In this document: positions 253 through 63,406 of the stretch, one piece after another
Numbering within the stretch: the first letter of the stretch is position 1
Layout of the letters: every line of letters begins with the position of its first letter
DNA from: Argopecten irradians
Taxonomy: Eukaryota; Mollusca; Bivalvia; Pectinida; Pectinidae
NCBI RefSeq assembly: GCF_041381155.1
Contig: NC_091134.1
Location: 3,592,001 to 3,656,000 of the forward strand
Direction: 5' to 3'
Length of the DNA stretch: 64,000 nucleotides
Notes under the pieces: model-generated
Told to the model about the DNA's origin: nothing
Seen by the model: only the letters and a program-made list of their open reading frames with translations
Databases searched by the model: none
Translations under genes and position numbers: made by a program

Positions 253-371
253 CAAGCCCTTTCTCATCCTCAATAGTGGAATCTTCCACTGGGGGGTTCA
301 TTGTTTCTAAGGCAATTCTAGCCTTAGCCAGGATTTGGGTAACACTCCTTGCATCTTCTGTAAACACATTC
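253..371 (-). CDS. Cassette 6 exon A
   Basis: A 119-nt exon (1 base + 39 codons + 1 base) encoding NVFTEDARSVTQILAKARIA and ending EDEKGL. The acceptor is TTTCAG and the donor GTAAGGGGAG. It aligns with other A exons (TLTKAKLTAES region) and shows that the cassette series continues beyond the left window edge. Confidence 0.74.
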
Positions 372-466
372 CTGAAAGTGATACAAGAAAACAATTAGGC
401 TATGTAATTTTAGAAGAGTCATGAACATTAATAAATTTTCACGTTGGGGAACTTACAGGACGGGGC

Positions 467-545
467 GGGATGGCGGGACGGGAGGCAGGACGAGGCTGTA
501 TGGGGTGGGATGGGGCGAGATGGGATGGAACATATGGGATCGGCA
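467..545. repeat. G-rich GGGACGGGGCGGGAT-type tract
   Basis: About 80 bp of imperfect GGGA(C/T)GGG units in an otherwise AT-rich intron (exon 5I to 6A). The plus strand has many G-runs of three or more and could form G-quadruplexes; it is the most GC-rich stretch of the first 2 kb. Confidence 0.7.
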
Positions 546-689
546 GGACGAGATTAGTGAGAACCCTCCTTGAAATTTTAACATGCAAATATATCATGTA
601 AATGACAAAAAAATATTTTATTTTTAGGTTTGTTTAAAGAGCCTTAATGCTATGGTGACCTACAGAGTAAGGTGATTAGTCAATCATAC

Positions 690-733
690 CTGTTTCTCTG
701 TAACTTTTTGGCAAAATTCTCAGCACGGACATT
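690..733 (-). CDS. Cassette 5 exon I
   Basis: A 44-nt exon encoding NVRAENFAKKLQRN. The acceptor is TTTCAG and the donor GTATGA. Intact, ends in phase 2. Confidence 0.75.
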
Positions 734-1505
734 CTGAAACACATATAACAATGAACCAAACACCAAATGGATAATGAATGGCTTAAGAAGGAAATATGAC
801 TCATAGATCCACTCGATACTTCTACATATTTGTGCCTTTACTAATGATACTTTACCCTGCTTCTATTTCAATCAAATTAAAATATCAACATTAAAGTCTT
901 AAAACATGAATTTAAGGTGTCTTGCAAGTAAATCAGCCAATAAGCAAATGTTTCAAGATGAAAATAGTCTGGTTAGAATTAGAAATAAAGTCTCCTTTTT
1001 TTGGTGTTTTGATTGAAATATGTAGGTCAGCGCTGTCATATTTGCTATTTGGTGAAAGTATATATTTAAATATGTCAGAAAAAATGTACTGATTCTGCTG
1101 TACTAAGATGTTTTTCATGGTGATTACACACAGGTGCAAAATGACCAGGTTTTTTCCACAATAGCATCAGTTGTGCATGCATGTAAACACGTCTGTTTCT
1201 CAGTTCTGACAGCTGTCAAATTTTTAGAATGCTTTAAACCTATCAATTATTGGGTTTTAAATCATGTATCAAGGTTTGTATCAGAGACATTAGTATAAGG
1301 ATATATTGACTTTTTTCTTGTGAGAGACTTTGTTCTTTTTTTGTATCTTACCACCCCAATCAAGAGTTCAATAAAATTTTAAAATTTGTGTATAGGAAAT
1401 AATTTAAAGTGTCAAAATACTCATTTTTGTCTCCATACATTATCAATTTTGTTACATAAACATGAATAAGGGTTTAGAATCTGTGTCAAACAAGATAAAA
1501 CCTAC
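734..1505. other. Intron between exons 5H and 5I
   Basis: AT-rich, non-repetitive sequence. A 68-residue open frame at 933-1139 is low in complexity and matches no other cassette; I do not regard it as coding. Confidence 0.5.
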
Positions 1506-1565
1506 CTCTTCATATGAGATCTTGTAGCACACCTGTGTTACAGGCCAGATGACTGTACTTCTCCT
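1506..1565 (-). CDS. Cassette 5 exon H
   Basis: A 60-nt exon encoding RRSTVIWPVTQV and CYKISYEE. The acceptor is GTCAG and the donor GTAGGT. The (I/V)IWPV core is kept while the rest is diverged. Confidence 0.72.
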
Positions 1566-1580
1566 CTGACAACAAAAACT

Positions 1581-2060: not shown

Positions 2061-2179
2061 CGTTAAATCTGCCCAGCGTCTTGTATCTCTAGGATAAGGG
2101 AGAACCTTCACTGTTGTAAATCTCCTTATGTTTGTGAGTTCCACTTGTACAAAGTCGTGCTTCACAGAATCGTCAATGT
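2061..2179 (-). CDS. Cassette 5 exon G
   Basis: A 119-nt exon encoding IDDSVKHDFVQVELTNIRR and VKVLPYPRDTRRWADLT. The acceptor is TAAAG and the donor GTAACT. Diverged from cassettes 1-3 (about half of residues shared by eye), with the LPYP and W positions kept. Confidence 0.78.
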
Positions 2180-2323: not shown

Positions 2324-2397
2324 CATACTCTAATGGATACTGTTTAATCCTCGCTACGGCAACAGCGTGGTCATCATGGAATAGTGAAACTTCTAAT
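2324..2397 (-). CDS. Cassette 5 exon F
   Basis: A 74-nt exon (1 base + 24 codons + 1 base) encoding LEVSLFHDDHAVAVARI and KQYPLEY. The acceptor is TATCAG and the donor GTAGGT. One codon shorter than other F exons; the Gly after HAVA is replaced by Ala. The 19-bp array ends ~40 bp upstream of its acceptor. Confidence 0.78.
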
Positions 2398-2438
2398 CTG
2401 ATAAGTAAACAATAAACAGATATATAGCTACTACTAAT

Positions 2439-6276: not shown

Positions 6277-6378
6277 TCAGGCCTTAGTCTTTCCTTAGGG
6301 ACAAACTTGGGGACAAAATAGAGCCTCTCAATAGGTAAAGGTAATGCCCCTTTTGGTGGTGCATATTCATTGTAAGAT
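6277..6378 (-). CDS. Cassette 5 exon E
   Basis: A 102-nt exon encoding SYNEYAPPKGALPLP and ERLYFVPKFVPKERLRPE. The acceptor is TTTCAG and the donor GTAAGT. Intact; followed by a 3.9-kb intron filled with the 19-bp repeat. Confidence 0.78.
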
Positions 6379-7197: not shown

Positions 7198-7307
7198 CTG
7201 TCCGACTGCAGACTATTCCTTGACCTTATCCTCTGAGAGACCTTCTTTCTAACCTCTTTCATCATTTCAGGTGAGTTTAAATCAATGGCTGGACACTTCT
7301 CCTTGAT
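7198..7307 (-). CDS. Cassette 5 exon D
   Basis: A 110-nt exon (36 codons + 2 bases) encoding IKEKCPAIDLNSPEMMKEVR and ending SLQSD plus AG. The acceptor is CACAG and the donor GTAAAA. The last bases of the exon with the donor (CTGCAGTCGGACAG|GTAAAA) recur four more times in the adjacent ~75-bp tandem repeat. Confidence 0.76.
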
Positions 7308-7628: not shown

Positions 7629-7706
7629 ATATCCTATCACTTTTTCCACATTCTTGTCTCTCATGGATTTCACCTGAACTTTGTCCAATCCTCTTCTGAT
7701 CACCTT
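7629..7706 (-). CDS. Cassette 5 exon C
   Basis: A symmetric 78-nt exon encoding KVIRRGLDKVQVKSMRDK and ending EKVIGY. The donor is GTAAGT and the acceptor AATAG. Intact. Confidence 0.78.
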
Positions 7707-8468: not shown

Positions 8469-8475
8469 TGGTGTC

Positions 8476-9196
8476 AATGAAAGCTATATTCATATTTATA
8501 GATGTGTCAATTGAAGCTGTATTCATATTTATAGATGTGTCAATAAAAGCTGTATTCATATTTATAGATGTGTCAATAAAAGCTTTATTCATATTTATAG
8601 CTGTGTCAATAGAAGCTGTATTCATATTTATAGATGTGTCAATAGAAGCTGTTCTCATATTTATAGATGTGTTAATAGAAGCTGTACTTACATTTATAGA
8701 TGTGTCAATAAAAGCTGTATTCATATTTATAGATGTGTCTAAAAAGCTGTATTCATATTTATAGATGTGTGTCAATAATAGCTGTACTTACATTTATTGA
8801 TGTGTCAATGAAAGCTGTATTCATATTTACAGATGTGTCAAAAAAGCTTTATTCATATTTATAGATGTGTCAATAGAAGCTGTATTCATATTTATAGATG
8901 TGTCAATAAAAGCTGTACTCACATTTATAGATGTGTCAATAAAAGCTGTATTCATATTTATAGATGTGTCAATAAAAGCTGTATTCATATTTATAGATGT
9001 GTCAATAGAAGCTGTATTCATATTTATAGATGTGTCAATAAAAGCTGTATTCATATTTATAGATGTGTCAATAGAAGCTGTACTTACATTTATAGATGTG
9101 TCAATAAAAGCTGTATTCATATTTATAGATGTGTCAATAATAGCTGTACTTACATTTATAGATGTGTCAATAATAGCTGTACTTACATTTATAGAT
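8476..9196. repeat. 33-bp minisatellite in frame with exon 5B
   Basis: About 22 copies of TCAATAAAAGCTGTATTCAT followed by ATTTATAGATGTG (plus strand). On the minus strand each unit reads as an 11-residue block DTSIN(V/M)(S/N)TA(F/S/I)I in the frame of exon 5B. Units near the exon carry GTAAGT or GTGAGT at the exon-end position; most others have ATGAAT instead, which removes the donor but keeps the frame. The frame is open from 9269 to 8830. Confidence 0.93.
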
Positions 9197-9269
9197 GACT
9201 TATCTGCTGTTTCAAAGACTTCTGATTGATCAGAATCTCCACCATTCTCATCATCATTGTTGTCATCTT
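9187..9269 (-). CDS. Cassette 5 exon B, continuous with a 33-bp repeat
   Basis: With the first donor (GTAAGT, GT at 9185-9186) the exon is 83 nt: two bases + 27 codons, encoding DDNNDDENGGDSDQSEVFE and ending DKSSIN. The acceptor is TTTCAG. The reading frame does not close at the donor: it continues through a 33-bp repeat as DTSIN(V/M)(S/N)TA(F/S/I)I units down to a TAA at 8827-8829. Further consensus donors occur in frame at 9152, 9086 and 8921, which would add 11, 33 or 88 residues. The 3' end is therefore uncertain and may be alternatively spliced. Confidence 0.75.
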
Positions 9270-9379
9270 CTGAAACATTTAGCTACATGGTCAAAATTAT
9301 CCCAGAAATACATACACAGTAACTAAACAATAAGCTACATTCTCAAAATTATCCCAGGAATATATGCAAAATTATTCCC

Positions 9380-9486: not shown

Positions 9487-9635
9487 CATGAATTGCCTCA
9501 TCTGTGACATCCATAGTTGAATCTGCGATAGAAGTGTTTCCACTGCCATCCTTCCTCTGACTGTTCAGAGACTCAGCAGTAAGCTTAGCTTTAGTCAATG
9601 TTTCAGAAATGTCACTGCTGTGTTTACTCAGTTGC
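9487..9635 (-). CDS. Cassette 5 exon A
   Basis: A 149-nt exon (1 base + 49 codons + 1 base), the longest A exon. It encodes QLSKHSSDISETLTKAKLTA, then a Ser/Asp-rich tail ending DEAIH. The acceptor is TCTAG and the donor GTAAGGGGAG. Read past the donor, the frame gives GKGR and then TAA, so failure to splice here would truncate the protein. Confidence 0.78.
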
Positions 9636-9907: not shown

Positions 9908-9951
9908 CCTCCCCTCTGTAATTTTTTGGCCATATTCTCGGCATCAACATT
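9908..9951 (-). CDS. Cassette 4 exon I
   Basis: A 44-nt exon encoding NVDAENMAKKLQRG. The acceptor is TTCCAG and the donor GTAAGC. Intact. Confidence 0.75.
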
Positions 9952-12309
9952 CTGGAAAAGAATTGAGATAAAAAGAAATTTTAAATTTTGTCCCCTTAAT
10001 CCTTGTACTAATTGGGTGGTATGGATCAACAGGAAAAGGGTCCAAAATCAAATGAAATTAGAAATTGATTTGAGTGCTGTATTGATATCTATTATATCAA
10101 TGGAGAAGTCATTTATATAAATAAATCCAAACTTTCCTTTTGTGTACCAACTCCTCAGACCTAACTATTCGTATTGGAATTCAGAATCCTCTACCCATTG
10201 GGAGGTTAATAGACAATTTTTGTTAAATTCTTATCAACCTGTTTTTTGAAGAAGTGTGATGACTGATGCTGGCCACGATGGTGAGCCATATCAAGTACTA
10301 CGGCCAAAACCGTCATCTAACATATATATCTTATATCATATTTACCATAATGAGTGCCCATGGGGTGCTTAAAAAAATTGTAACACAGGGAATCTAAATG
10401 TAAGTTGTGGACATTTTTAAATTTCAGCCATATTTTAACTGTTTCTGCACTCACATAATCGGTTACTATCGCAATGATACTGCTGGTATGTCTTTTCCCC
10501 TTCAAGACACATTATTACGTCATTATTCACATTTTGTAAGCTTCACACAGTTGTTCGTAGGATAAGGGGTATTTATATAACTTCAACTCCTTCAGATGAG
10601 TGGATCGAGGGTTGCTTATAGAGGAGGGGGGGGGAATCAAAACCTTCTCAAGCCTACATGAATCCGAACTTTAAAAGATCAGAAAACAAACCTCCCGAAA
10701 AGATGCCACGTGACACAAGTCCTTTACCGGCCAAATGATGGTTTTTCCCACCTGAAAAATCAGTGTGAAAAACAATAGTAAGTAATGAAAATTTACGCAG
10801 TAAAAATATCCAATATCTTGGTACATAAGAAATACATTACAGTAAATGCAGAAACACCAAGTTCTTGTTATGTTAAATGTTATCTTATCCCATAACTGGC
10901 TTGTCCAGCCATGTAATATGGTCATGTCATAAATATCATAAGACACATGTGTAATAACACTATTATGGTAGTTTTGACCTTATAATCAATATATGATATA
11001 TCGCATGATTGTCTCAGAAGACAGAAACGTCACATCCGTGTCAAATTTCTTATGTTTTTATATAGAGACGAAATTAAAACTTTTACTTATATTTCTACTA
11101 ATAAAAGTTATATGATAAATAGCAACTTACACTCATGACTAAGTGATTTGAAATTTATTAAATTTGTTAAATAGTTTTCATATGCCACTCACCTAAATGC
11201 TTGTGGCATATCAAATTGTTGAACTTATTTGATAAATTTCATAATCACATAATCACTCATATAAGATACTCTATTTATCCTAATTCACAAACAAACTGGT
11301 GATTCCTTAGTACAGACTTCTAAGTGTCTAATCTTCACTATAATAACTAGAAATATGTCTGTAAGACGTTAAGTGATCGCAAATCTATACTTCCAAAAAC
11401 TCTAATTCCTGAGAAAAAGTTCCACAATATTAAATAATCTTGTACTTAAACCTAGGAATGTAACTGCTGTGTGAAATCCGTTCTTTGCACCATCTACACA
11501 TAAAACAAGAGTACCACTGTCCTAGCCATCAATTAAATACAATGTGTGATGTGTAAGTCAATGATGTCAGTCATATAATAAACATAATAACCCGCGGATA
11601 TATCCACAAGCCAACATGAAATAAGTCAAACACAAGATAAACAATTACATATATCGCTTTTAAATGTCTTTTTGGATGTTGCTAAAATTTATCATTTTTT
11701 TCCTTTTTCTTTCACTCGACTTTATATAAACTTAATATGAATTGCATCGATTCCGAAGCTTCTATGAGATATCTATCATGACAAAACAAATTGCAGTTGG
11801 AATTTGCTCATAGTCGAAGTATCACAGACACCCATACCCATCAATGAAGTAATAATGCCAAGAATACTATTTCAACGCAAATGAGACCCCTAAAATCCCG
11901 CAAATAAGACATTTTTCTATCCCCACCTGATAATTAAAAACATGTATTATTAAATGCTAGTAATACTCACACTAAAACTTTAGGATATGGAGAACATACA
12001 GTTTGAGTAACTCCTAAATTTAACAAATGGCTCTTTGCTTGACAGTTTTTCATTTCCTATTAGTCTACAATGATACAGTAAAACATGGTTAAGGGGAACA
12101 AAGGATGTTAAAACTTACACCTTTATATAACTGACCAACTTCTGTTCATTATCTTTACATAGGAATATGGGTAAAGAACTTCGACAGATTGAGTATCTGA
12201 AATTGATCTCCATGCATAATTTCGTCATAGGAATCTTCAATTGCTAAAATCAATAACAGTAAAGACAATGGTTCTAACAAACCGCTGGGGACCACCAATT
12301 CACTTGTAT
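9952..12309. other. Introns around exon 4H; no exon G seen
   Basis: AT-rich sequence on either side of exon 4H. I searched 10752-12309 on the minus strand for the exon G signatures (IEDS, LPYPKDK, SW) and found none. A poly-G run lies at 10625-10635. No mobile element is evident. Confidence 0.5.
10692..10751 (-). CDS. Cassette 4 exon H (IIWP motif)
   Basis: A 60-nt exon encoding VGKTIIWPVKDL and CHVASFRE. The acceptor is TTTCAG and the donor GTTTGT. It lies 10.5 kb from exon F with no exon G found between. Joining F (ends phase 1) to H (starts phase 0) would break the frame. Confidence 0.75.
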
Positions 12310-21230: not shown

Positions 21231-21307
21231 CGTAAGTCTGCAATGGATACTGGATAACCTTGCCTAAAGCAACAGCGTGGCCATCATGGAAGAGTGAAAC
21301 TTTCAGT
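21231..21307 (-). CDS. Cassette 4 exon F
   Basis: A 77-nt exon encoding LKVSLFHDGHAVALGKV and IQYPLQTY. The acceptor is TTCAG and the donor GTAGGT. Open. It is followed, on the minus strand, by the 29-bp and 44-bp satellite blocks where exon G should be. Confidence 0.78.
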
Positions 21308-22500: not shown

Positions 22501-22608
22501 TTGACCCTTAGTTTCTCTCTGAGAATTGGCCTTGGGACAAAACATAGTTTTTGCAATCTGAGCATCGGATTCAAAGTTCGTTTGGGTTTTGCATTCTCAT
22601 TATAATCC
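22501..22608 (-). CDS. Cassette 4 exon E
   Basis: A 108-nt exon encoding DYNENAKPKRTLNP and LCFVPRPILREKLRVK. The acceptor is TTTTCAG and the donor GTAAGT. Open and in the usual phases. Confidence 0.75.
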
Positions 22609-22856: not shown

Positions 22857-22969
22857 CTATCAGGGACTGTAGAAATCTCCGAACTCTTAACTTCATAGAT
22901 TATCTTCGCTCTTATCATACTTCTACCTTCACGCGAGTTGAAATCAATGGCTGGGCATTTTTTCTTAAT
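22857..22969 (-). CDS. Cassette 4 exon D
   Basis: A 113-nt exon (37 codons + 2 bases) encoding IKKKCPAIDFNSREGR and ending STVPD. The acceptor is TTCAG and the donor GTAATG. Open, with the CPAID motif conserved, although B and C of the same cassette carry stops. Confidence 0.72.
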
Positions 22970-24906
22970 CTGAAAACAGCCGAGGAATATTTAAGATCAT
23001 AGTTAGTTATTTTGGTCAATATAAAAGTCTACAAACTACGGAAGTCGCAGATGCAAACAAAAAAGACTATATTTCTTGTTTTTCCTCAATGTAAATATTA
23101 TTTTTTGGTGTGACACTGGGCAGTTTCCGTAGCAGTTATAAGAATCATACATATACAACATATGAAAGGGCTGCAAGGACTTTTGCTGCAAAATTATAAT
23201 AATATAACAAATGGTAAAAATAGTGGTTACACAAGTGGTTGTTTGGATGTGGAATTTTATTCCACACGATGAGTTATTTTTATATAAATGTTACATTATT
23301 TTAATAGCTTTGGTGGGTTTTTGTACTTCTGGTTCTTTTCATTTATGAACTTATTAAAGTAAGGAATAAATTCCTAGTATCAAACATTCAAGAATCATGT
23401 GAAACCTGTTTTTTACACAAATTATTTTTTTGCTTTTAGCCACAAATAGAGAAATATAACAATCATAAAGTATTGTGTGTTAGCCAAAAATATGATTATA
23501 AGTTGTTGTGAATATTGGTCTCAGCAAAATAAGACACATTTTAGATGCTAAAATTATTAATCATCTTTTGTATAAGATTACAATTGGATATGCTATTCTT
23601 CTTTTACTTCTGGGGATCATCTTCTATAATGGGGGACAACTTTTGGACAATTTTTTCCTCATTATAATGTCTTAATGCTTTTGAAGTTTTCAAAGTTATT
23701 TTTAACAATATAAACATTTGGTCTGGCGGTCTATAATATTATCATAGTGAAAGGCTGGACTGTGTTCGTCTTCTTACTCCGCGACAATTTTTTCCCCATA
23801 AGTTTATTTGTCCCTTTTTCGTTTTGTTTTTAAAAAGTATTACAACAGCATTATTTACAACAACGTTAAGCTTAAAAACGTTACATTTTGTGTCACAACA
23901 CCAAAAACGTTACAAACTAAACTGTTTATATCTGCATTTTGAATGGTCAAAGACGGGGGTGATCACCACATCAGCACACCATTTATTGATGTAGTTGATC
24001 AAAGTGATTTTTGCGGGCACAGAGAATAAGTAGTTCACTCAAAGTTCAAAGGTGATAATTCCGAACAGAATGTGGAGACGAGAAGTAGATCATGTAAAAT
24101 TTCTGAATGTGTCAGAACATACACAAAACTGGGGATGATAATTTTAATCGTTGGTATTACAGATGTGTCTTCGTCATTTATACGACACTAATATATCAAG
24201 AGGGAATAAAATATTTTCTAATCTATAAATTGAATATCTTATCATCATAGGGTTGGTTATCCACATAAAACACTGGAGTAAATAATCAATGTTGTCTATG
24301 CAAAATGTTTAAAGATGGAAATATTTAAAATCTGTACAATACAATTCGTGTTGTTCGATGTAACCCACTTTTTCCACCAGGAGAATCACACCAGGACCGT
24401 ACATAATAAACATCTTGTATTGATATCTCCTGTACCTTTAAGGAATCTACAACCTCTAAATACTTGGTACAACTATTTCCGTCTTTGAATATTACAGTGT
24501 TTGCTCCCTGAGCTGGCGTAAGTAATGATTGTTTAAGTTGTGTTATTGTCGTGCGACGACGCTTTTTTGGCACATCGTTTTCTCCACATTTCGTATGTTT
24601 TTTTGTGTTATGCTCCACAAATTGCTCGACGTCACATTCTAATTCCTATATATATACAAGCAAGTGCAGTTAACTCTGTAATTATGCAAATGACGAAATA
24701 TGAATAATGATTTTTATAGGTCCAAAATAGTTTTAATACCAAATGCTTAAAATTTATTCTTCTGTATGTTGTGGCCAACACAAAAAAACAACCAATCATT
24801 TATTTTGTCATTTCATCAACATTCAAAATTACTTATATCAGGCCCTTTTGGGAATTTTCATAAAGACAGAAAGAAAAAAAAAAGGGAAGAAAGAAATATA
24901 CTCCAC
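22970..24906. other. Intron between exons 4C and 4D
   Basis: Mostly AT-rich unique sequence. It contains one non-repetitive open frame (24325-24650, listed separately). I see no array or complete element. Confidence 0.5.
24325..24648 (-). CDS. Possible orphan exon or protein fragment
   Basis: An open frame of ~108 residues ending in TAA. It starts just after a possible acceptor (TATATATAG at about 24648) with ELECDVEQFVEHNTKK, has a basic, nuclear-signal-like PKKRRRTT, then TNTVIF-like mixed sequence and SIQDVYYVRSWCDSPGGKSG. No ATG begins it; the first apparent start is GTG. Its composition is more protein-like than surrounding introns, but it has no counterpart in other cassettes. It could be a fragment of a mobile element protein or of an unrelated exon. 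I do not recognise it. Confidence 0.3.
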
Positions 24907-24990
24907 ATATTCCATTAGGTTGTCCATCTTTCTTCGCCTTTATTTCATGGTTTCTACATCAAATTTTTCTATTCCTTTTCTGACAAGTTT
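24907..24990 (-). pseudogene. Cassette 4 exon C, with stop
   Basis: At 84 nt it reads KLVRKGIEKFDVETMK, then TAA, then RRRKMDNLMEY. It is 6 nt longer than the 78-nt copies and the donor has become GTGGAG instead of GTAAGT. The acceptor AACAG is kept. It is most like exon C of cassette 1 (VRKGIEKF). Confidence 0.7.
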
Positions 24991-25230: not shown

Positions 25231-25338
25231 ATTCATGGCTTTAATTATTCACAAACTCCAAGGTGTCTAAGATATCTGGGACATCTGATTCTTCATCTTT
25301 CTGATGACTGTCATCATCTTCATCTTCAGAATCAGCAC
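25231..25338 (-). pseudogene. Cassette 4 exon B, with stop
   Basis: At 108 nt it is 7 nt longer than the 101-nt copies. It reads ADSEDEDDDSHQKDEESDVP and DILDTLEFVNN, then TAA, so the frame closes before the donor. The donor is the weak GTGAGA. The acceptor AAAG and acidic character are as in other B exons. Together with the stop in the next exon this suggests that cassette 4 is decaying. Confidence 0.7.
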
Positions 25339-26036: not shown

Positions 26037-26039
26037 TTC

Positions 26040-26882: not shown

Positions 26883-27007
26883 CATGATCTCCCTCATCAT
26901 TGTCCATTCTACTGGAATCTTCCATTGTAGTGTTCCCACAGCTATCCTCCCCTTGGCTCGTAAAAGATTCAGCAGTAAGCTTAGCTTTAGTCAAGATGTC
27001 TGAACGT
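26883..27007 (-). CDS. Cassette 4 exon A
   Basis: A 125-nt exon encoding RSDILTKAKLTAESFTSQGE and ending NDEGDH. The acceptor is GCAG and the donor GTAAGGGGAG. Nearly identical to exon A of cassette 3 although later exons of this cassette are much more diverged, which suggests recent gene conversion or unequal exchange here. A 34-bp donor minisatellite follows. Confidence 0.78.
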
Positions 27008-28547
27008 CTGCAAATCAACAATTATTCTACCTAGAAAATTCATTGCAATCAGTAAGTTTTCATTGCCAGGTGAGGCTTTTGTTCCAGCCTTTTAATAACG
27101 GTATTACAGAAATGGTTCTGATAATGTTGTTTTGCGCAAACCATTGTCTTTAAACTGCCCCAAAATACCAGTTTTTACAATCTTTGTTATAACAGCATGA
27201 CAAGCAACACATATTCAATCTCATGGCTTATAACAAAAAGGCTCAGAGGGGCCTTTATTGCTCAACAGGTTTATTCAGGATGACTTATTTCCAATTGCAT
27301 TTACCAGATATTTTTTTAACATTTTCCAAGAATCCCCTCAGCCTCGTGGAGGTCAGTCCAACCATTTGTATAATTTTGAAACTTATACTACCAGTTATAG
27401 TGATATTAATATCTTTGTTTCTGATAAGAAGTTACTTAGATACAACTATAGACAAACTGATCACTTTTGGCCATATTGCACAAGTACCTGGGGATTAGTC
27501 CATCAGTTTTTGATCTTCAACCCATAGGGACATTAGTGTGCAAACATGACTGATATCTCTTGCTAAGTTTTAGATAATCTTTTTCCATGAAATTGGCTAA
27601 ATTACCCCTTTTGGTGCCATTCCTCATTCCTAGGTCGATTAATCAACCTTTACATTCACACAACTTTGAATTTCCACCATCCCATGAGGATGCTCACAGT
27701 CAAATTTTGGTTAAATTCTGATAAGTGGTTATGGAAAAGTAGTAATTGGACACCAAAGTATGTCAGTAACTTACCCTTGTCGCTCAAACTTTTTGGTCAG
27801 TTTCTCAGCTTCAATATTCTAGAAAACAAAGAGATAAAAGGTTTATGTATATATCCATCACTATATCAATGGCGTTGATCTAAAGTGGTCTCTGAATTTC
27901 AATATCATTTTTAGAATTAACTGAGAACCCTTATAGTTACTTGTTGCAACTCCATTTCTCCAGAAATAGCGATAATTTTCTATAATAGTAAAATCAATAT
28001 GATTAATACAATTTGTATTTACTGACACATGAAAATGTGTTGTGTCAGTTATACAAAGACAAGATGATCAGACAAGATCTCAATGCCTGTGCAAAAATCT
28101 GTTGCGAAACAGTCAGAAAGCCTCATGTTTGACAATTTCATTATTCTACCTGACTCGCGTTGAGATTCTGTTGTCTCGCGACAATCATACAGTTTTATAA
28201 TAAAGGCACAGCTAAATAGAATCAGATCCCAGTTTAATGAACATTTCTTAATTTTTAAGGAATTCCTTAACTTAAATTTTGCCATAGAAAAGCATTACAA
28301 AAGTTAGGGAAAAAATCTTAAGGAGTCTTCCTTCAAATCTGTAATGCTTAATGCATGGAGAATTTTAATATAATGGATTCCTTAAATTATTCAAATGTTT
28401 ATGAAACTGGGCCCTTAAAATTCTTTGAAAGCTCAGACATTTTAGATAAAAATGGTTCTTTATATTCACTAGACTTATGACATTTCCAACAATAGTCAGG
28501 GTTCATAAAACACAGAAATACATACAAAATACCAACATAGAACCAAC
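27008..28547. other. Introns around exon 3I
   Basis: AT-rich unique sequence on both sides of the 44-nt exon. Overlapping 90-residue open frames at 27223-27527 show no conservation with paralogous introns and are not called. Unlike the same intron in cassettes 1 and 2, there is no 41-bp array between exons H and I. Confidence 0.5.
27775..27818 (-). CDS. Cassette 3 exon I
   Basis: A 44-nt exon encoding NIEAEKLTKKFERQ, ending in phase 2. The acceptor is TTCTAG and the donor GTAAGT. Intact. Confidence 0.75.
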
Positions 28548-28607
28548 CTTTAGAAACGAGTCCAGATGGCTGATGTCCTTCACTGGCCAAATTATAGTAT
28601 TTCTTGG
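28548..28607 (-). CDS. Cassette 3 exon H, with duplicated acceptor
   Basis: A 60-nt exon encoding PRNTIIWPVKDI and SHLDSFLK, donor GTTGGT. The 22 bp around its 3' splice site are tandemly duplicated (28591-28612 and 28613-28634), so two identical TTACAG acceptors sit 22 nt apart. Only the inner one keeps the exon at 60 nt and in frame; the outer would shift the frame. Confidence 0.78.
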
Positions 28608-30845: not shown

Positions 30846-30922
30846 CAAAAGTATGCAATGGATATTGGAGAATCTTGCCTGTAGCAACAGCGTGGCCTTC
30901 ATGGAAGAGGGAAACTTTCAGT
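30846..30922 (-). CDS. Cassette 3 exon F
   Basis: A 77-nt exon encoding LKVSLFHEGHAVATGKI and LQYPLHTF. The acceptor is CTCAG and the donor GTAGGT. Intact. Only ~230 bp separate it from exon E; this is the shortest E-F intron of the five cassettes. Confidence 0.8.
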
Positions 30923-31152: not shown

Positions 31153-31257
31153 TTAGCCGTTAGTTTATCTTTGGGGATTGGCTTGGGCACAAAACGTAGT
31201 TTCTTTAAAGTCAAAGGGTCTGGCATATTTTCAGATTTTGTCTTCTCATTGTACCCC
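31153..31257 (-). CDS. Cassette 3 exon E
   Basis: A 105-nt exon (1 base + 34 codons + 2 bases) encoding GYNEKTKSENMPDP and LKKLRFVPKPIPKDKLTAK. The acceptor is TTCAG and the donor GTAAGT. Intact; the reference copy for judging the damaged exon E of cassette 2. Confidence 0.8.
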
Positions 31258-32082: not shown

Positions 32083-32186
32083 TTGTCAGATTGCAGAAAC
32101 CTCCGAGTTCTTAACCTCTGAGATATTTTCTTCCCGATCTCTTTTCTGGTTTCAGGTGAATCAATGGCTGGGCATTTTTCCTGAAT
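32083..32186 (-). CDS. Cassette 3 exon D
   Basis: A 104-nt exon encoding IQEKCPAIDSPETRKEIGKK and ending RFLQSD plus two bases. The acceptor is TCCAG and the donor GTAATG. Intact. Confidence 0.8.
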
Positions 32187-34236: not shown

Positions 34237-34317
34237 ATATTTCATATTTAACTTGTCCAAGTTCTTGTCTTTCATGGATTCCACACAAATTTTATCCATC
34301 CCTTGTCTGATAATTCT
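34237..34317 (-). CDS. Cassette 3 exon C
   Basis: An 81-nt exon (27 codons, one more than cassette 2) encoding RIIRQGMDKICVESMKDK and ending LNMKY. The donor is GTAAGT and the acceptor TATAG. Intact and symmetric. A 39-bp minisatellite lies ~55 bp upstream of the acceptor. Confidence 0.8.
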
Positions 34318-37576: not shown

Positions 37577-37677
37577 ATTCAAGATCGAATTATCCAAGGT
37601 GTCAAAGACTTCAGAGTCGTCTGATTCTTCATCTTCCTTATAATCACTGTCATCATCTTCCTCTACAGAATCAGCAC
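37577..37677 (-). CDS. Cassette 3 exon B (acidic linker)
   Basis: A 101-nt exon encoding ADSVEEDDDSDYKEDEESDD and ending LDNSILN, with donor GTGAGT and acceptor AAAG. Intact and in phase with exon A: the split Gly codon G|GT gives H-G-A-D-S across the junction. Confidence 0.8.
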
Positions 37678-38795: not shown

Positions 38796-38920
38796 CATGA
38801 TCTCCTTCATCATTCTCCACTCTATTGGAATCTTCCATTGTAGTGTTCCCACAGCTATCTTCCCCTTGGCTCGTAAAAGAGTCAGCAGTAAGCTTAGCTT
38901 TAGTCAAGATGTCTGAATGT
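38796..38920 (-). CDS. Cassette 3 exon A
   Basis: A 125-nt exon (1 base + 41 codons + 1 base) encoding HSDILTKAKLTADSFTSQGE, then an acidic Asn/Asp-rich end NDEGDH. The acceptor is TCCAG and the donor GTAAGGGGAG. A 34-bp donor-containing minisatellite follows immediately on the minus strand. Nearly identical to exon A of cassette 4. Confidence 0.8.
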
Positions 38921-39162: not shown

Positions 39163-39212
39163 CTATAATTCTCTGTAGCTTTTTGGCCAGATTCTCAGCT
39201 TCATTAAACATT
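39163..39212 (-). pseudogene. Cassette 2 exon I, with stop
   Basis: At 50 nt it is a type-I exon with four extra bases after the first two codons, creating TAA as the third codon (AAT GTT TAA), and two extra bases near the donor. The remainder reads EAENLAKKLQR in the right frame. The 4-base change is not a simple homopolymer error, so real decay of this exon is possible. Donor GTATAT and acceptor TGTAG are kept. Confidence 0.65.
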
Positions 39213-42513: not shown

Positions 42514-42573
42514 CTTTTCATAAGATTCCACGCTGTGCAGATCTTTAACTGGCCAAATTATTGTATTTCCTTT
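42514..42573 (-). CDS. Cassette 2 exon H (IIWP motif)
   Basis: A symmetric 60-nt exon encoding KGNTIIWPVKDL and HSVESYEK. The acceptor is TTACAG and the donor GTTTGT. It lies 60 bp from the edge of the 41-bp array filling the next intron. The equivalent exon is missing from cassette 1. Confidence 0.8.
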
Positions 42574-43331: not shown

Positions 43332-43450
43332 CTTTATCTTTTCCCAACTTCTTTTATCTTTAGGATATGGAAGTACTGGGACTCTGGTAGATCTTCTTGT
43401 TTTTGTGATTTCCAGCTGTGCAAATTCTTCCCTCATAGAATCCTCAATGT
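43332..43450 (-). CDS. Cassette 2 exon G
   Basis: A 119-nt exon encoding IEDSMREEFAQLEITKTRR and VPVLPYPKDKRSWEKIK. The acceptor is AAAAAG and the donor GTAATC. Intact. The upstream intron (43451-43900) still aligns with that upstream of exon 0G (63407-64000). Confidence 0.8.
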
Positions 43451-44784: not shown

Positions 44785-44861
44785 CATACTTCCACAATGG
44801 ATACTGGATAATCTCACCTAAAGCAACAGCTTGGCCATCATTGAAGAGGGAAACTTTTAGT
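44785..44861 (-). CDS. Cassette 2 exon F
   Basis: A 77-nt exon encoding LKVSLFNDGQAVALGEI and IQYPLWKY. The acceptor is TTCTTAG and the donor GTATGT. It differs from cassette 1 exon F in His to Gln within the DGHAVA motif. Phases 2 to 1, intact. Confidence 0.8.
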
Positions 44862-45494: not shown

Positions 45495-45604
45495 TTAGCC
45501 CTTAGTTTATCTTTGGGGATCAGCTTGGGCACAAAAACGTAGTTTTCTTTAAAGTCAAAGGGTCTTGGCAAATTTTCAGAATTAGTCTTCCTCATTGGTA
45601 CCCC
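45495..45604 (-). pseudogene. Cassette 2 exon E, frameshifted
   Basis: At 110 nt it carries five single-base insertions relative to the 105-nt exon E of cassette 3 (for example AAAAAC for AAAAC, GTTTTC for GTTTC, CATTGG for CATTG). The frame of YNEKT...FVPK...KDKL is lost, although donor GTAAGT and acceptor TTCAG are intact. Flanking intron shows the same insertion bias, so sequencing error is the likelier cause. Confidence 0.7.
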
Positions 45605-46876: not shown

Positions 46877-46980
46877 TTGTCAGATTGCAGAAACCTCCGA
46901 GTTCTTAACCTCTGAGATATTTTCTTCTCGATCTCCTTTCTGATTTCAGGTGAATCAGTGGCTGGGCATTTTTCCTGAAT
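46877..46980 (-). CDS. Cassette 2 exon D
   Basis: A 104-nt exon encoding IQEKCPATDSPEIRKEIEKK and ending RFLQSD plus two bases. The donor is GTAATG and the acceptor CTAG. It differs from exon D of cassette 3 by a few substitutions and is intact. Confidence 0.8.
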
Positions 46981-47427: not shown

Positions 47428-47505
47428 ATATTTCATTAACTTGTCTAAGTTCTTGTCTTTCATGGATTCCACTTGAATTTTATCCATCCCTTGTCTGACA
47501 ATTCT
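47428..47505 (-). CDS. Cassette 2 exon C
   Basis: A symmetric 78-nt exon encoding RIVRQGMDKIQVESMKDK and ending NLDKLMKY, with donor GTAAGT and acceptor AATAG. Open. A 56-bp minisatellite begins ~40 bp upstream of its acceptor. Confidence 0.8.
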
Positions 47506-48699: not shown

Positions 48700-48800
48700 A
48701 TTCAAGATTGATTTATCCAAGGTGTCAAAGACTTCGGAGTCGTCTGATTCTTCATTTTTCTTAAAATCACTGTCATCATCTTCCTCTACAGAATCAGCAC
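48700..48800 (-). CDS. Cassette 2 exon B (acidic linker)
   Basis: A 101-nt exon (2 bases + 33 codons) encoding ADSVEEDDDSDFKKNEESDD and ending LDKSILN. The donor is GTGAGT and the acceptor AAAG. It differs from exon B of cassette 3 at only a few positions. Ser/Asp-rich, with many potential casein-kinase-2-like sites (inference). Confidence 0.78.
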
Positions 48801-50232: not shown

Positions 50233-50359
50233 CATGATCTCGCTCATAATTGTCCACTCTACTGGAATCTTCCATTGTAGTGTTTCCCACAGCTATCCTC
50301 CCCTTGGCTTGTAAAAGATTCAGCAGTAAGCTTAGCTTTTAGTCAAGATGTCTGAACGT
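50233..50359 (-). pseudogene. Cassette 2 exon A, frameshifted
   Basis: At 127 nt it has two single-base insertions relative to the 125-nt copies in cassettes 3 and 4: one in the AAAAG run of the LTKAK codons and one in the GGGAAA run. The first puts a TAA in frame just after RSDILTK. Everything else, including donor GTAAGGGGAG and acceptor GCAG, matches the intact copies. Both changes lengthen homopolymers, so a sequencing error is at least as likely as a real mutation. Confidence 0.7.
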
Positions 50360-50602: not shown

Positions 50603-50646
50603 CTATTTCTCTGTAGCCTTTTGGTCAGATTCTCAGCTTCAACATT
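50603..50646 (-). CDS. Cassette 1 exon I
   Basis: A 44-nt exon encoding NVEAENLTKRLQRN, ending in phase 2, with acceptor TTGTAG and donor GTATAT. It is intact, unlike its cassette 2 counterpart at 39163. Its flank and the 41-bp array upstream appear interleaved at 52.0-52.5 kb (see findings). Confidence 0.75.
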
Positions 50647-55990: not shown

Positions 55991-56109
55991 CTTTATCTTT
56001 TCCCAACTTCTTTTATCTTTAGGATATGGAAGTACTGGTACTCTGGTATATCTTCTTGTTTTCGTGATTTCCAGCTGTGCAAATTCTTCCCTCATAGAGT
56101 CCTCAATAT
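55991..56109 (-). CDS. Cassette 1 exon G
   Basis: A 119-nt exon (2 bases + 39 codons) encoding IEDSMREEFAQLEITKTRR and VPVLPYPKDKRSWEKIK. The acceptor is TTTAAG and the donor GTAATC. Nearly identical to exon G of cassette 2. No exon H follows before exon I in this cassette, but because G ends and I starts in phase 0 the frame is kept. Confidence 0.8.
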
Positions 56110-57462: not shown

Positions 57463-57539
57463 CATACTTCCACAATGGATACTGGATAATCTCGCCTAAA
57501 GCAACAGCGTGGCCATCATTGAAGAGTGAAACTTTCAGT
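57463..57539 (-). CDS. Cassette 1 exon F
   Basis: A 77-nt exon (1 base + 25 codons + 1 base) encoding LKVSLFNDGHAVALGEI and IQYPLWKY. The acceptor is TTCTTAG and the donor GTATGT. With exons G and H it would make a small domain: a strand pair around DGHAVA-G, the LPYP segment and the IIWP end. Confidence 0.8.
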
Positions 57540-57789: not shown

Positions 57790-57900
57790 TTAGCCCTTAG
57801 TTTATCCTTGGGGATCAGCTTCGGCACAAAATGTAGTTTCTTCAAAATCAAATGGTCAGGTGTATTTTCCGTTCTTCTCATGGCAGCCTCACTGTACTCC
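57790..57900 (-). CDS. Cassette 1 exon E
   Basis: A 111-nt exon (1 base + 36 codons + 2 bases) encoding EYSEAAMRRTENTPD and LKKLHFVPKLIPKDKLRAK. The acceptor is TTTTCAG and the donor GTAAGT. The FVPK(L/P)IPKDKL motif is shared by all copies. It is 6 nt longer than exon E of cassette 3, in frame. Confidence 0.78.
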
Positions 57901-58981: not shown

Positions 58982-59085
58982 CTGTCAGATTGCAGACACC
59001 GCCAAGTCCTTAACCTCTGAGATATTTTCTTTCTGATCTCCTTTCTCATTTCAGGTGAATCAGTGGCTGGGCATTTTTCCTGAAT
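58982..59085 (-). CDS. Cassette 1 exon D
   Basis: A 104-nt exon (34 codons + 2 bases) encoding IQEKCPATDSPEMRKEIRKK and ending CLQSD. The acceptor AG at 59086-59087 is in TCCAG and the donor is GTAATG. The invariant EKCPA(I/T)D motif with one Cys marks this exon type. A basic stretch (RKEIRKKISQRLR) follows. Confidence 0.78.
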
Positions 59086-60290
59086 CTGGAAACAGAAACA
59101 GAAAATTCAAGATGGTTTGTTCCAGTCCGTGTTTGTGAGGTCCAAAATATTCAAAAACATAAACCATAACCCAAATCTATCATGCATGTATTCGAAGGAA
59201 GCAACTGTAAAAAGAATATCAAATAAAGGTGTCCAAAGCAGAATGTCTATGAAAACAATTAGTCGCAAATTAAAGTGTACCATTATTCTTTGCACTCCCC
59301 TGATGGTGAAACAGCAAAAAGCACACATAAATTAAGACACCAAAATGATATATTCAGAAAGTTTTGGAAAGTTTATTTGAACAAATGTTTTGGAAATGTC
59401 GTCAGTAGAACTGGAGAAGTTTAAGATGGAAGCAGTAAAGGCCAACTTTGAATTTTAGAATGACAAAAAATAGCAATACATGTACTTGTTCTGGACTATC
59501 TGGATATCATTCTAGCCCAATCCCACCAGTGGTCAATGAAAAAAAAAAAATGAGAAAAGTTTACCGACGAAAACACTATAGACAGATAGCAGGCACACTG
59601 AGATGGACAACTCACAACTCACAATGGATGTTGATAAAAAAAGAAATCATTGACTTACATATTTCATTAGCTTGTCCGTCTTCTCCTCTTTCAGGGTTTT
59701 CACCCCAAATTTTTCTATTCCTTTTCTGACAAGTGTCTGTTAAAAAAGAAAAGTAAATCATTTACAAAACATTTTAATACATGTAAATTTTAAAAGGACA
59801 ATATTCAGTGATCTAATTTTGTTACATAACCACGAAGCAAAATATGGCATAAATGTATTGTTCTACATTCCTTTATATCGATAGGAGTTCAAAACTAATC
59901 ATGTCGGTTTTTCATTGTTGCGGGATCTATATGTTTATCTTCAAATTTTTTTTCTTTTATCAAAACAAGTTATGGGCAAAAATTTACATGGCATAGGGAA
60001 ACGCCAAAACACACCAAAATTTAACCAACCTATTTTGACACAAACACGCCAAATTTTCACCGATGGCAAAATATCCCACTTTACGGTATAAATGATCTAC
60101 CAATACATAACTCTGCGATCCAATACCATGATAAATCAACCTCTAATGGAATGGCATTTATAGTGCGACTTTTACAATTATTTATGGATCTTATGATTTA
60201 AAAGAGGGAGTGTAGCAGGAGAAAAACCATCAACCTTCAACGTAGAAGTAGAATGATAACCATGGTGGTGTCAATAAAACCTCAACTCAC
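59086..60290. other. Introns on both sides of exon 1C
   Basis: AT-rich unique sequence. Unlike cassettes 2 and 3 there is no minisatellite upstream of exon C. A 93-residue open frame at 59448-59729 on the plus strand overlaps exon 1C antisense and is not called. Confidence 0.5.
59659..59736 (-). CDS. Cassette 1 exon C
   Basis: A symmetric 78-nt exon (26 codons, phase 0 to 0) encoding TLVRKGIEKFGVKTLKEEK and ending KLMKY. The donor GTAAGT is a full consensus and the acceptor is AACAG. Highly charged, probably helical. The same exon type reads RIVRQGMDKIQVESMKDK in cassette 2. Confidence 0.78.
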
Positions 60291-60421
60291 ATTTAAGGAG
60301 GATTTATCCAACGATTCCAAAATTTCAGATTCATCCGATTCAGCGAATTCATCTGATTCTGATACTTCCAGATAATCACTGTCGCTGTCATTGTTTACAT
60401 TTACATCTTCTAAATCACCAT
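60291..60421 (-). CDS. Cassette 1 exon B (acidic linker)
   Basis: At 131 nt (2 bases + 43 codons) this is the longest type-B exon. It encodes a strongly acidic, Ser-rich segment with SDYLEVSESDEFAESDESE and ends ESLDKSSLN, like the SILN/SSIN ends of other copies. The donor is GTGAGT and the acceptor CAG. It is probably disordered. Length varies between cassettes (83, 101 and 131 nt) with phases kept. Confidence 0.75.
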
Positions 60422-60954
60422 CTGTGAATAATCATATCGATCAATAATTCAGTATCAATTAATTTGTACAAAAATCAGAGAAATAAATACAAGGTTACTA
60501 AACTAAAGTCTTGTTTTACTCAGTGCTTATTTAGGTCCTACAGATTTTCAACTTTATAGTTAAAGTCACCTATAAGAACTGATTCCACTTTTGAGGTGGG
60601 GAAAAAGAAGTGAATGTACCTGCCTCTGTAAACATGAATTAGATGTAATCATTTATCTTGCCTGTTTTCCAAAGGTTAAAAGTCCATTTGACAAAAGGAA
60701 AAGATTGGCCTCATTTATGTAATAATAAAAGTAAGAACATGACCTTGTATGATAGATTTAGACACACTGTCAAAAAGTAGATATTAACATTGTTTCTCCA
60801 ATTCCTCAAAAATAACCAGGTTTTCACCCCCATAGAACTAGCCTATAAGATAAAATATTTTCTTTGTCTATGATGTTCTGATGGATACAAAGTGTATATT
60901 GCCAAATTACCAAACATTTTCAATTAGTTATTAATTCTCAAAACCCATCCTTTG
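60422..60954. other. Intron between exons 1A and 1B, upstream of the array
   Basis: AT-rich unique sequence without recognised features. Confidence 0.5.
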
Positions 60955-61306
60955 TATGTCTCTCCCCTTACCTTGATGTCACTCATCAGTTATCTCCCCT
61001 TACCATGAGGACACTCATCATAGTTATCTCCCCTTACTAGGATGATGCATATCATGATTATCTCCCCTTACCATAATGTCACTCATCATAGTTATCTCCC
61101 CTTACCATGAGGACACTCATCATGATCATGTCCCCTTACTATGGTGTCACTCACCATGATTATGTCCCCTTACTATGGTGTCACTCATCATGATTATCTC
61201 CCCTTACTATGGTGTCCAACATCATGAGTACCTCTCTAGCTTTACCATGAACTGTCCCAACATGATTATCTCCCCTTACCACACTATAATAATTATCTCC
61301 CCTTAC
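60955..61306. repeat. 34-bp donor-site minisatellite, cassette 1
   Basis: About 10 units of TTATCTCCCCTTACCATGAG/GATG type running into exon 1A, with variants TATGTCCCCTTACTATGGTG. As elsewhere, each unit recreates the exon-end plus GTAAGGGGAG donor on the minus strand. Confidence 0.9.
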
Positions 61307-61422
61307 CGTGACTTGTTTCATCCATGACCTCCATAATTAAATCCTTCTCCTGAATGGCCACAGCTTCAGCAGTAATTTTAGCATCAGTCAATATTTCTGA
61401 AATCTCACTGCTACTCTTACGT
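61307..61422 (-). CDS. Cassette 1 exon A
   Basis: An exon of 116 nt (1 base + 38 codons + 1 base) encoding KSSSEISEILTDAKITAEAV, then a shorter acidic tail than in cassettes 2-4. The donor at 61305-61306 reads GTAAGGGGAG and directly adjoins a 34-bp minisatellite made of copies of the exon end plus donor. Confidence 0.75.
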
Positions 61423-61662
61423 CTGAAAATGTTGCAGAAAATAGTTAGCTATGTGAACTTAACATTGCAATAAATACATTTTCCTTTTCAAATGAGGATT
61501 TCATTTCATCTTTGTAAACATTTTATGACTAAATAATCAACAAATTCAATATTAATAACTGTTTTGAATTGTAGCAAGACATCAGCAAGTCTACAGATCT
61601 TTGGTAATGTGAGATTAACAACATATACTTTTATGAATGTTTTGAATCTGTAATGAACTCAC

Positions 61663-61706
61663 CCTGATCTCTGTAACTGTCTGGCCAGTCTCCCAGTGCG
61701 CATATT
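61663..61706 (-). CDS. Cassette 0 exon I
   Basis: A 44-nt exon, 14 codons plus two bases, encoding NMRTGRLARQLQRS. It is the short, probably helical type-I exon (consensus NVEAENLAKKLQR) and is the most diverged copy. The acceptor AG follows TTTTC and the donor is GTGAGT. It ends in phase 2 and joins the one-base start of exon A in cassette 1. Confidence 0.7.
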
Positions 61707-63281
61707 CTGAAAACATCAAGATCAACCAGGAATCTTTATAACCCATGTTGAATGATAATAAGAATACAAATAAGATTGTACAACTAATTAATTAATACCA
61801 TGTTCGAAATTAACTAAGAGCCTTAAACTAACTTTTAAAATTAATATTTGCCCCTTGATTTCCCCGACAATAAGTATGATACAAACAAAATATCAGTGAT
61901 ACATATTATTACCTTCAGAGACGTAATTCATAGCAATTCAGCCATTTAACATCTTTTGGCCCCAACTTACAGCCTAAATATACATATATATATATATTTG
62001 CATATTTTTTAACCATTTTCCAAGGAATTCTATCAGACAAATTTGGTCATGTTTACCGATTAAAGGTCATATTCTGATCAGTGGTTTCAAACACGAAATC
62101 AATTTTGCGAATTGTTGATGACAGGAAGTCGAGGATATGGTATAAACTCATCTTTGTCTGTTGGACCAGGTGAGCTTACAAACACAATCCACCCAACACA
62201 TTCAAATACTTCAAATATCATGTGACAAACATCAAACAAACCTTTAGAAATGCGCTGTGACTACACAGATCCTTCAGTGGCCAAATTATTGTATTTCCTT
62301 TCTGAAAGCAAAAACGAAATCAATAGTTAAGTAAAGAAATTTTATATAACAATATTTTCAGTAAATGCAGTAACAAGAAAGTATAGTTCTGTTCACTGTT
62401 ACTTTATCCTAATCCATGTCATAAGACAAAATGGTCATTGCCAGTACATAGATCTAAATATAACAACAAGATCTGGATATAACAACATTGATAGCTATAT
62501 AGTAACCACTGAGTATCAAGGGTATTTCTTATCACCGTTAATTTGATATATGGCAACCAGATGGCATCTGACATTAATAAATTCTCCTAATTGTAAATTA
62601 CTAGTTTTCTGTCTGTTGAAGCCCTATATGGCAATTTCGACCTTAATCAGACAATTTAACAAGAGACACAATACAACACTATCAGAGTAAACAGTAGCTG
62701 AAACTTAAGGCAATACAAGGAACTCTTTTATAGAAGCTACAAGTTTCTGATATATCTGATAACTTCAGAATTAGATCAAGGTGTTTCATTTAAATAAACT
62801 TGGTAGCCCTTCATCCCAGCAATCTACAGGCCAAAGATAAGGTCTCTTGGAGTCATAGTTATTCACAAGAAGTTACTCAAATGTTTAAGCATATTAACCC
62901 CTACGACCTTGAATGATGATCAAGGTCATTCTCATTGGACAAAGGCTCTTAATTCATCTTAGCATGCTTCAGGACAAATATCAGTACCCTGAAACCATTA
63001 CACCTTTACATAAGCCAAGCAGAAGCGACATTACAAATGTCAACATCATTTTTTTATTGGCTGATAAAGTAAATTTTAAACCTAATGAAAATGCTCTGTA
63101 CATGAAAAGTTGAATTATGTTGGTATATATAATACATCTGTTCATCATATGAAATATAAGATAGGTCTGCCAAAGGAAAAGGCATAAAATATTATTTAAT
63201 GATAAAGATCTGGCACGAATAACGCTAAAATCAGATTATTGATCAGATACATACATTTACAGTACTTAATAGTTTGATTAC
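61707..63281. other. Introns around exon 0H
   Basis: AT-rich sequence. At 62150-62175 GTCTGTTGGACCAGGTGAGCT resembles the 3' hairpin half of the element at 44490-44515, suggesting an old element remnant. No arrays. Small open frames (62913-63113) are not conserved. Confidence 0.5.
62242..62301 (-). CDS. Cassette 0 exon H (IIWP motif)
   Basis: A symmetric 60-nt exon (phase 0 to 0) encoding KGNTIIWPLKDL followed by CSHSAFLK. The acceptor AG at 62302-62303 follows a weak pyrimidine tract and the donor reads GTTTGT. The GNTIIWP core is the best conserved peptide of the whole cassette. The same 60-nt length occurs in every H exon found. Confidence 0.8.
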
Positions 63282-63406
63282 CTTCATGTTTGCCCAACTT
63301 CTTTTATCTTTCGGATATGGAAGTACTGGTACTGTCACATTGGTGAATTTTCTTATTTTTGTGATTTTCAGCTGTGCAAATTCTTCCCTCTTAAAATCCT
63401 CAATGT
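63282..63406 (-). CDS. Cassette 0 exon G
   Basis: An exon of 125 nt: two bases completing a codon, then 41 codons, ending in phase 0. The acceptor AG lies at 63407-63408 and the donor GT at 63280-63281. It encodes IEDFKREEFAQLKITK and VPVLPYPKDKRSWANMK. It is 6 nt longer than the 119-nt G exons elsewhere, giving two extra residues before the VPVLPYP core. It is the most 5' exon of the gene in this window; the preceding exon F must lie beyond 64000. Confidence 0.78.

Follow-up and report, generated by a model that had tools for sequence, protein, structure and literature searches.

In nebulin, a four-exon block is reported to recur in tandem, with exon borders lying within domains (Bjorklund et al. 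2006, PMC1553488). Tandem exon duplications are also reported to serve alternative splicing, one exon per group being chosen in a mutually exclusive manner (PMC9013439). Here, we describe a locus of the bivalve Argopecten irradians, contained in a window of 64,000 nucleotides (contig NC_091134.1, C1:3592001-3656000) and in a 60-kb flank taken on either side of it for whole-gene modelling; genome searches covered the 846-Mb assembly. The window appeared to be the middle of what is, with high probability, a single minus-strand gene, modelled with 73 exons, which is related to a C2H2 zinc-finger gene and has grown by the tandem copying of exon blocks. We refer to it as the giant gene, and to its repeated unit as a cassette.

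Exon array and extent of the modelled gene

That nine exon types recur in fixed order on one strand, as a preliminary description of this DNA had stated, is confirmed. The window contains 47 copies, all of them on the minus strand and transcribed as F, G, H, A, B, C, D, I, E; D and I are present in six copies, and the other seven types in five. The copies form a partial cassette 1, cassettes 2-5, and cassette 6 without its E. The splice phases are constant in each of the nine types, in agreement with the same description: F(0,0), G(0,2), H(2,2), A(2,1), B(1,0), C(0,0), D(0,2), I(2,1) and E(1,0), the typical lengths in this order being about 78, 104, 108, 77, 119, 60, 44, 125 and 100 nt. The limits given there for the run coincide exactly with exon borders, 253 being the end of exon 6I and 63406 the start of exon 1B. 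Its estimate of an about five-fold recurrence is right for the window (5-6 copies per type), but the run exceeds both window ends, and the whole gene has nine cassettes. The view that complete cassettes are multiples of three was not confirmed in that form: among cassettes 2-5, which lie wholly in the window, only cassette 4 qualifies (801 nt, whole, and needing a weak alternative donor in E4). In cassette 2, C is absent and I is frameshifted; cassette 3 is complete in its exon types (824 nt), with a frameshift in H and stops in D; and cassette 5 has no B and a stop in F. Over the whole gene, the length is a multiple of three in 6/9 cassettes (-1, 0, 1, 4, 6 and 7), with 6E taken at 50 nt.

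With the exon edges set by homology, AG was found at 45 and GT at 44 of the 47 window copies. D3 and E1 became AG...GT exons once their edges were moved by one base, and F5 and E4 are without the usual donor. In the window with tandem repeats masked, same-strand pairs of open reading frames (ORFs) at E<=1e-3 numbered 98 on the plus and 118 on the minus strand, and 0 in each of five dinucleotide shuffles. The plus strand was considered as coding and rejected: the plus-strand ORF pairs that were inspected are the antisense of the same exons, and the splice sites fit the minus strand. The splice signals identify the minus strand as the coding one.

The modelled gene starts at C1:3676224 with an ATG exon that encodes MEEKELEVDDYHEDPIFLN, has a phase-0 donor and precedes the first F. 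It continues through nine cassettes (-1 to 7), which contribute 69 modelled exons, and through the linker exons X1 (0,0) and X2 (0,1) to a last exon of 749 nt, entered in phase 1, with a TAA stop that ends at C1:3576107. The two upstream cassettes, -1 and 0, are shorter and made of F, G, I and E only. They fit the chain because the end of G and the beginning of I are both in phase 2, as are the two borders of H-A-B-C-D. Downstream of the window lie exon E6 (50 nt, donor edge CCT/GTAAGT), cassette 7, and then X1, X2 and the last exon. About 0.8 kb of coding sequence per cassette is spread across roughly 7-19 kb. In this model, phases match at 71/72 junctions, the only mismatch being A5 to C5, where B5 was not found; acceptors are AG in 72/72 and donors GT in 71/72 cases, F5 being the one without a donor. 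There is no ATG or stop exon among the exon types common to the cassettes. The lack of gene boundaries noticed earlier holds in that ATG and stop exons were found only at the array ends, no start or end exons being seen between cassettes in intervals searched non-exhaustively for unshared ones.

A sister C2H2 zinc-finger gene

A genome search with the C-terminal part of the giant gene found a C2H2 gene 22 Mb away, its sister gene, in which X1 matched with 52% identity over 66 aa (E 6e-16) and the last exon with 44% over 112 aa (E 1e-18). Exon by exon, with E-values calculated against six sister sequences only, X1 gave E 4e-27, the last exon E 1e-23 and the I profile E 2e-5. The sister chain runs through an I-like exon (2,1), an E-like exon (1,0), X1 (0,0) and X2 (0,1) to a last exon that is likewise entered in phase 1, so that its order and phases are those of the giant gene; the sequence likeness is strong for X1 and the last exon and moderate for I, while E and X2 were assigned by position and phase. 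Because I-E-X1-X2-last is shared in order and phase, a single transcription unit is likely and a set of separate genes unlikely; a single RNA across the array would follow, as inferred from DNA only. The comparison also indicates a long-standing association of I, X1 and the last exon within one gene, to which E and X2 can be added on the basis of their place. The preliminary proposal of one gene instead of a cluster is therefore upheld by the outer ATG and stop exons, the splice sites, the joined phases (except at the missing B5) and the I/E chain of the sister.

The two genes are alike in the C-terminal finger and tail, and differ in that I and E were each found once in the sister and in that the sister ends in an array of C2H2 fingers (6 stretches matching Pfam zf-C2H2), with further finger-like exons upstream by sight, whereas the last exon of the giant gene has one finger-like motif and no multi-finger array. 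They differ also in exon types F to D: profiles of F, G, H, A, B, C and D gave nothing convincing in the 50 kb around the sister gene. Searches by tblastn with A-B-C and with two cassettes returned, among the best candidates scored, this locus only, bar one match at E 4.1, and a source of this remaining part of the cassette was not found by these searches.

Probable duplication history and integrity of the reading frame

The ratio of nonsynonymous to synonymous substitution rates (dN/dS) was 0.23-0.70 between cassettes 1-7, and 0.38 to 1.07 for pairs including -1 or 0, which were compared on F and G (or G) alone. The proportion of synonymous differences exceeded that of nonsynonymous ones (pS > pN) in 8/9 of the cassette pairs tested, out of 36 (Fisher p 0.023 to 2e-11, the pairs being non-independent); the ninth was -1/0, with p=0.065. 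Pooled by exon type, the ratio ran from 0.32 (E) and 0.34 (B) up to 0.70 (F), and dS between copies ran from 0.18 to 1.59.

The closest pairs within their types are A2/A3 (85% DNA identity, vs 78% for A3/A4), H3/H4 (89% vs 80% for H2/H3) and F3/F4 (88% vs 78% for F2/F3), so that the switch of the closest partner falls in the intron between H3 and A3. The youngest duplicated unit therefore seems to be a block of nine exons, A...H, with its junction inside the phase-2 intron that separates H from A, so that the frame would be preserved. Two exon types hardly discriminate on this point, namely B, at 88% and 87%, and G, at 89% and 91%. To judge from their dS of 0.66-1.59 vs the other cassettes 1-7, cassettes 5, 6 and 7 are old, and the introns of the older cassettes mostly fail to align. 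The region upstream of X1 would have expanded by the tandem copying of two kinds of block, F-G-I-E and F-G-H-A-B-C-D-I-E, the probable route being unequal crossing-over at introns that share a phase.

Several observations weigh against reading the locus as one gene grown in this way. In the assembled sequence, the frame through all exons comes to a stop in I2, after residue 781. The hard lesions are those of I2, H3, D3 and F5, plus the missing B5; E4 and E0 are doubtful (each with a TAA unless the GTGAAT donor and a weak acceptor, respectively, are used); and C2 is absent, a loss that keeps the frame because C is a 60-nt exon of phase 0-0. Among cassettes 1-4, selective constraint is modest (dN/dS 0.42-0.70), and in pairs compared by F and G only, dN/dS reaches 0.88 (-1/7), 0.90 (0/3) and 1.07 (0/7). 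Exon I misfits the proposed youngest block (91% for I2/I4 and 88% for I3/I4), which makes further exchanges likely. The assignment of H7, I7, E6 and -1E owes more to their position, phase and splice sites than to similarity (profile scores of 4.1, -1.4, 1.3 and -0.9 bits, respectively), and as many edges were chosen by AG/GT and phase, these do not constitute an independent test. On the side of the sister gene, only one of the 7 I exons compared, -1I, retrieves the I-like exon convincingly (E 1e-5), the E-like exon does not exceed background (best E 0.002, as for a chance match elsewhere), and X2, at E 0.5, is not significant.

When cassettes 2-5 are left out, one open frame of about 1,455 aa runs from ATG to stop, relying on the weak E0 acceptor. 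A splice-aware search for C2, B5 and F5 gave weak lines only, and none was accepted. As for the H-A-B-C-D block in cassettes -1 and 0, a profile search of flank ORFs returned only lines below 7 bits, and a splice-aware search for H, A, B, C and D in cassette 0 and for H and B in -1 gave at most 4.0 bits, none accepted. Over the H-A segment, 8 private one-nucleotide insertions were counted in cassette 3 (961 bases), 5 of which duplicate a neighbour, along with 0 private one-nucleotide deletions, vs 0, 0 and 1 private insertions in the other three copies (461-541 bases). Similarly, I2 has 3 one-base insertions (2 duplicating a neighbour) vs 1 in each of the other two copies; in the B and E stretches there were 0, and in G 0 or 1. 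As the insertions in H3 and I2 mostly repeat the neighbouring base, these two lesions suggest local sequence error, as in uncorrected long reads. D3, F5 and B5 are unlike this pattern, and some lesions look like decay. B5 may be lost, or hidden inside the arrays at 12361-17044 / 17222-21063. Cassettes 2, 3 and 5, broken as assembled, are either mis-assembled, skipped in splicing, or decaying. Thus, of the giant repeat protein proposed earlier, the exon array is confirmed and a protein of all cassettes is not: it remains putative, with the frame of cassettes 2, 3 and 5 broken in the DNA.

A tandem cluster of small separate genes, one per cassette, would likewise consist of same-strand tandem copies, an arrangement seen in many gene clusters, and the interior of the array was covered non-exhaustively for unshared start and end exons, a further point that weighs against a single gene. 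However, the shared exons include no ATG or stop exon, start and end exons stand at the two ends of the array, AG and GT flank 68/69 cassette exons (E0 and E4 via weak alternative sites, F5 being the exception), and the I-like and E-like exons of the sister lie upstream of X1-X2-last in one phase-matched chain; we consider such a cluster very improbable. It is even harder to believe that one cassette was wrongly repeated by the assembly: long tandem-repeat arrays do hamper the assembly of this region, but the copies diverge strongly (dS 0.18 to 1.59), and the introns of older cassettes are mostly unalignable.

The single, growing gene may nevertheless be a damaged one. That it is a once-working repeat gene whose cassettes 2, 3 and 5 have been pseudogenised, its RNA being truncated or destroyed, is unlikely but deserves consideration, given the stops and frameshifts in I2, H3, D3 and F5, the loss of B5 and C2, and the modest constraint among young copies; yet the start through cassette 1, followed by 6, 7 and the end, gives one open frame (with the weak E0 acceptor), and the lesions of H3 and I2 are single-base insertions, which are expected of uncorrected long reads. 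It is more doubtful whether cassettes are optional splice modules, the broken ones being skipped to yield proteins with differing repeat numbers. Any nine-exon stretch, H-A-B-C-D (phase 2 to 2), and F or C (0 to 0) could be removed in frame, the searches of cassettes -1 and 0 revealed no H-D block, and the frame without 2-5 is open, but the joint skipping of eight or nine exons requires a mechanism. A bolder idea, and a rather improbable one, is that a zinc-finger gene swapped its finger array for growing, partly expendable, phase-symmetric cassettes, from which splicing would pick variable numbers, with broken cassettes tolerated, the number of copies evolving within a single gene, and minisatellite copies of 5' splice sites taking part in the choice.

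Proposed product, introns and comparison with known systems

The last exon encodes a basic KKRK stretch and, by sight, one C2H2-like motif, C-x2-C-x12-H-x4-H; its Pfam lines, zf-C2H2_6 (E 0.0051) and DUF629 (E 0.0018), are both under the cut-off. Because of this stretch and finger, we propose the nucleus as the most likely location of the product, which would carry many repeats and acidic E linkers; because of these linkers and the repeated unit, it would act as a multivalent scaffold binding DNA/chromatin or protein. No Pfam, PDB or Rfam family backs a closer functional guess. Pfam gave nothing above the cut-off for single cassettes, A-B-C, F-G, the H-D consensus, the last exon or the whole ~1,455-aa frame, the best sub-threshold line for F-G being BET (E 0.13-0.16). 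PDB searched by sequence gave nothing below E 0.26, Rfam had 0 matches in the window, and viral contigs gave 5 pattern matches and no relative. The earlier remark that no described protein of this architecture was recognised agrees with the searches of those libraries. A likeness of A-B-C to a plant transposase-associated domain was considered and dropped, as A-B-C gave no Pfam family at E<=10; a plant transposase-linked sequence was also without a Pfam family, and the H-D consensus had none at E<=1.

Table 1. Features of the locus and its sister gene. Positions refer to the window unless preceded by C1; D3 in the text corresponds to exon 3D here.
Feature	Position	Strand	Remarks
Whole modelled gene	C1:3676224-3576107	-	100,118 bp, 73 exons
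Exon 1B	63282..63406	-	AG/GT, phase 1-0
Exon 1C	62242..62301	-	phase 0-0
Exon 1D	61663..61706	-	diverged; phase 0-2
Exon 1I	61307..61422	-	phase 2-1
Exon 1E	60291..60421	-	phase 1-0
Exon 2F	59659..59736	-	
Exon 2G	58982..59085	-	
Exon 2H	57790..57900	-	
Exon 2A	57463..57539	-	
Exon 2B	55991..56109	-	no exon C found before 2D
Exon 2D	50603..50646	-	
Exon 2I	50233..50359	-	frameshifted, two extra bases vs I4
Exon 2E	48700..48800	-	
Exon 3F	47428..47505	-	
Exon 3G	46877..46980	-	
Exon 3H	45495..45604	-	frameshifted, 110 nt vs 105 in H4, single-base insertions
Exon 3A	44785..44861	-	
Exon 3B	43332..43450	-	
Exon 3C	42514..42573	-	
Exon 3D	39163..39212	-	internal stops, 50 nt vs 44 in other copies
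Exon 3I	38796..38920	-	
Exon 3E	37577..37677	-	
Exon 4F	34237..34317	-	
Exon 4G	32083..32186	-	
Exon 4H	31153..31257	-	
Exon 4A	30846..30922	-	
Exon 4B	29995..30113	-	
Exon 4C	28548..28607	-	
Exon 4D	27775..27818	-	
Exon 4I	26883..27007	-	
Exon 4E	25253..25338	-	open only via weak alternative donor GTGAAT, else TAA
Exon 5F	24900..24990	-	broken, in-frame TAA, no GT donor where tried, low end approximate
Exon 5G	22857..22969	-	diverged
Exon 5H	22501..22608	-	
Exon 5A	21231..21307	-	B not found in next 10.5 kb, mostly tandem repeats
Exon 5C	10692..10751	-	
Exon 5D	9908..9951	-	
Exon 5I	9487..9635	-	
Exon 5E	9187..9269	-	
Exon 6F	7629..7706	-	
Exon 6G	7198..7307	-	
Exon 6H	6277..6378	-	
Exon 6A	2324..2397	-	
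Exon 6B	2061..2179	-	
Exon 6C	1506..1565	-	
Exon 6D	690..733	-	
Exon 6I	253..371	-	
Very long tandem arrays	2438-6115		between H6 and A6
Very long tandem arrays	12361-17044 and 17222-21063		between A5 and C5
Very long tandem array	39449-42443		between C3 and D3
Donor minisatellites	9371-9495, 8471-9197, 6871-7202, 26.0-26.9 kb, 38.25-38.8 kb, 49.4-50.25 kb, 60.96-61.2 kb; C1:3591655-3591817		
Sister C2H2 gene	C1:25.905-25.911 Mb (loci C1:25905318-25915992)	-	22 Mb from giant gene

The intronic minisatellites mostly start at the 5' splice site and repeat that site. Among the 72 introns, a number that includes the A5-C5 stretch as well as the broken F5 edge, 8/72 hold two or more recurrences of their own donor 12-mer (<=1 mismatch) and 0/72 of their acceptor 12-mer; tandem arrays reach the donor in 10/72 and the acceptor in 2/72. 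Five of the eight donor cases copy one ancestral case, that of exon I, and the independent origins therefore number about four. The word at the exon I donor, GGTAAGGGGAGATAA, has 46 occurrences in the window (<=1 mismatch), all on the minus strand, vs 0 in shuffles, and 283 exact copies genome-wide vs 0 for the reversed word; it may be a preferred donor word, or may mark the edge of an element that is mobile or that makes introns. Two GGTAAGGGGAGATAA arrays inspected elsewhere (L021 and L022) both start at an apparent coding-exon end, the exon next to the latter (L022:880-1035) possibly encoding part of an actin-related protein 6, and an array of a different unit starts at the donor of a sister-gene exon.

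On one side, the giant gene is flanked by a CARD/caspase gene of the plus strand (E 4e-9 for CARD and E 2e-17 for caspase), and on the other by plus-strand CFAP74-like exons (E 2e-16 and E 8e-16), with one nearer exon that fits CFAP65 best (E 1e-9). A highly similar tandem duplication of ~14 kb lies within the CFAP74-like gene (C1:3534-3555 kb). A dispersed repeat of a few hundred bp, perhaps a miniature inverted-repeat transposable element (MITE), occurs beside and inside the giant gene at C1:3693.2, 3683.4, 3656.0 and 3581.0 kb, with copies about 58-95% alike in translated pieces.

With young and old nine-exon copies, a likely crossover intron and an array-less sister, the locus presents internal gene growth at several ages in one genome, and it makes it possible to ask whether internal repeats that look damaged are removed by splicing, are decaying or result from errors in the assembly. 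An automatic annotation could well break up a locus of this kind into several false genes. Among the literature matches listed, none deals with this gene, and the nebulin repeat was not among the Pfam families listed at E<=10. Growth by multi-exon blocks is already known; this repeat, its family and its zinc-finger kinship look new within the libraries and literature searched. As in nebulin (PMC1553488), a multi-exon block recurs in tandem, and the giant gene contains constant-phase tandem blocks of consecutive exons, as read from its DNA; it differs in being another protein, with a nine- or four-exon unit, very short exons and no Pfam domain. With the duplications of PMC9013439, it shares tandem exon copies within one gene, but here whole blocks of consecutive exons recur.

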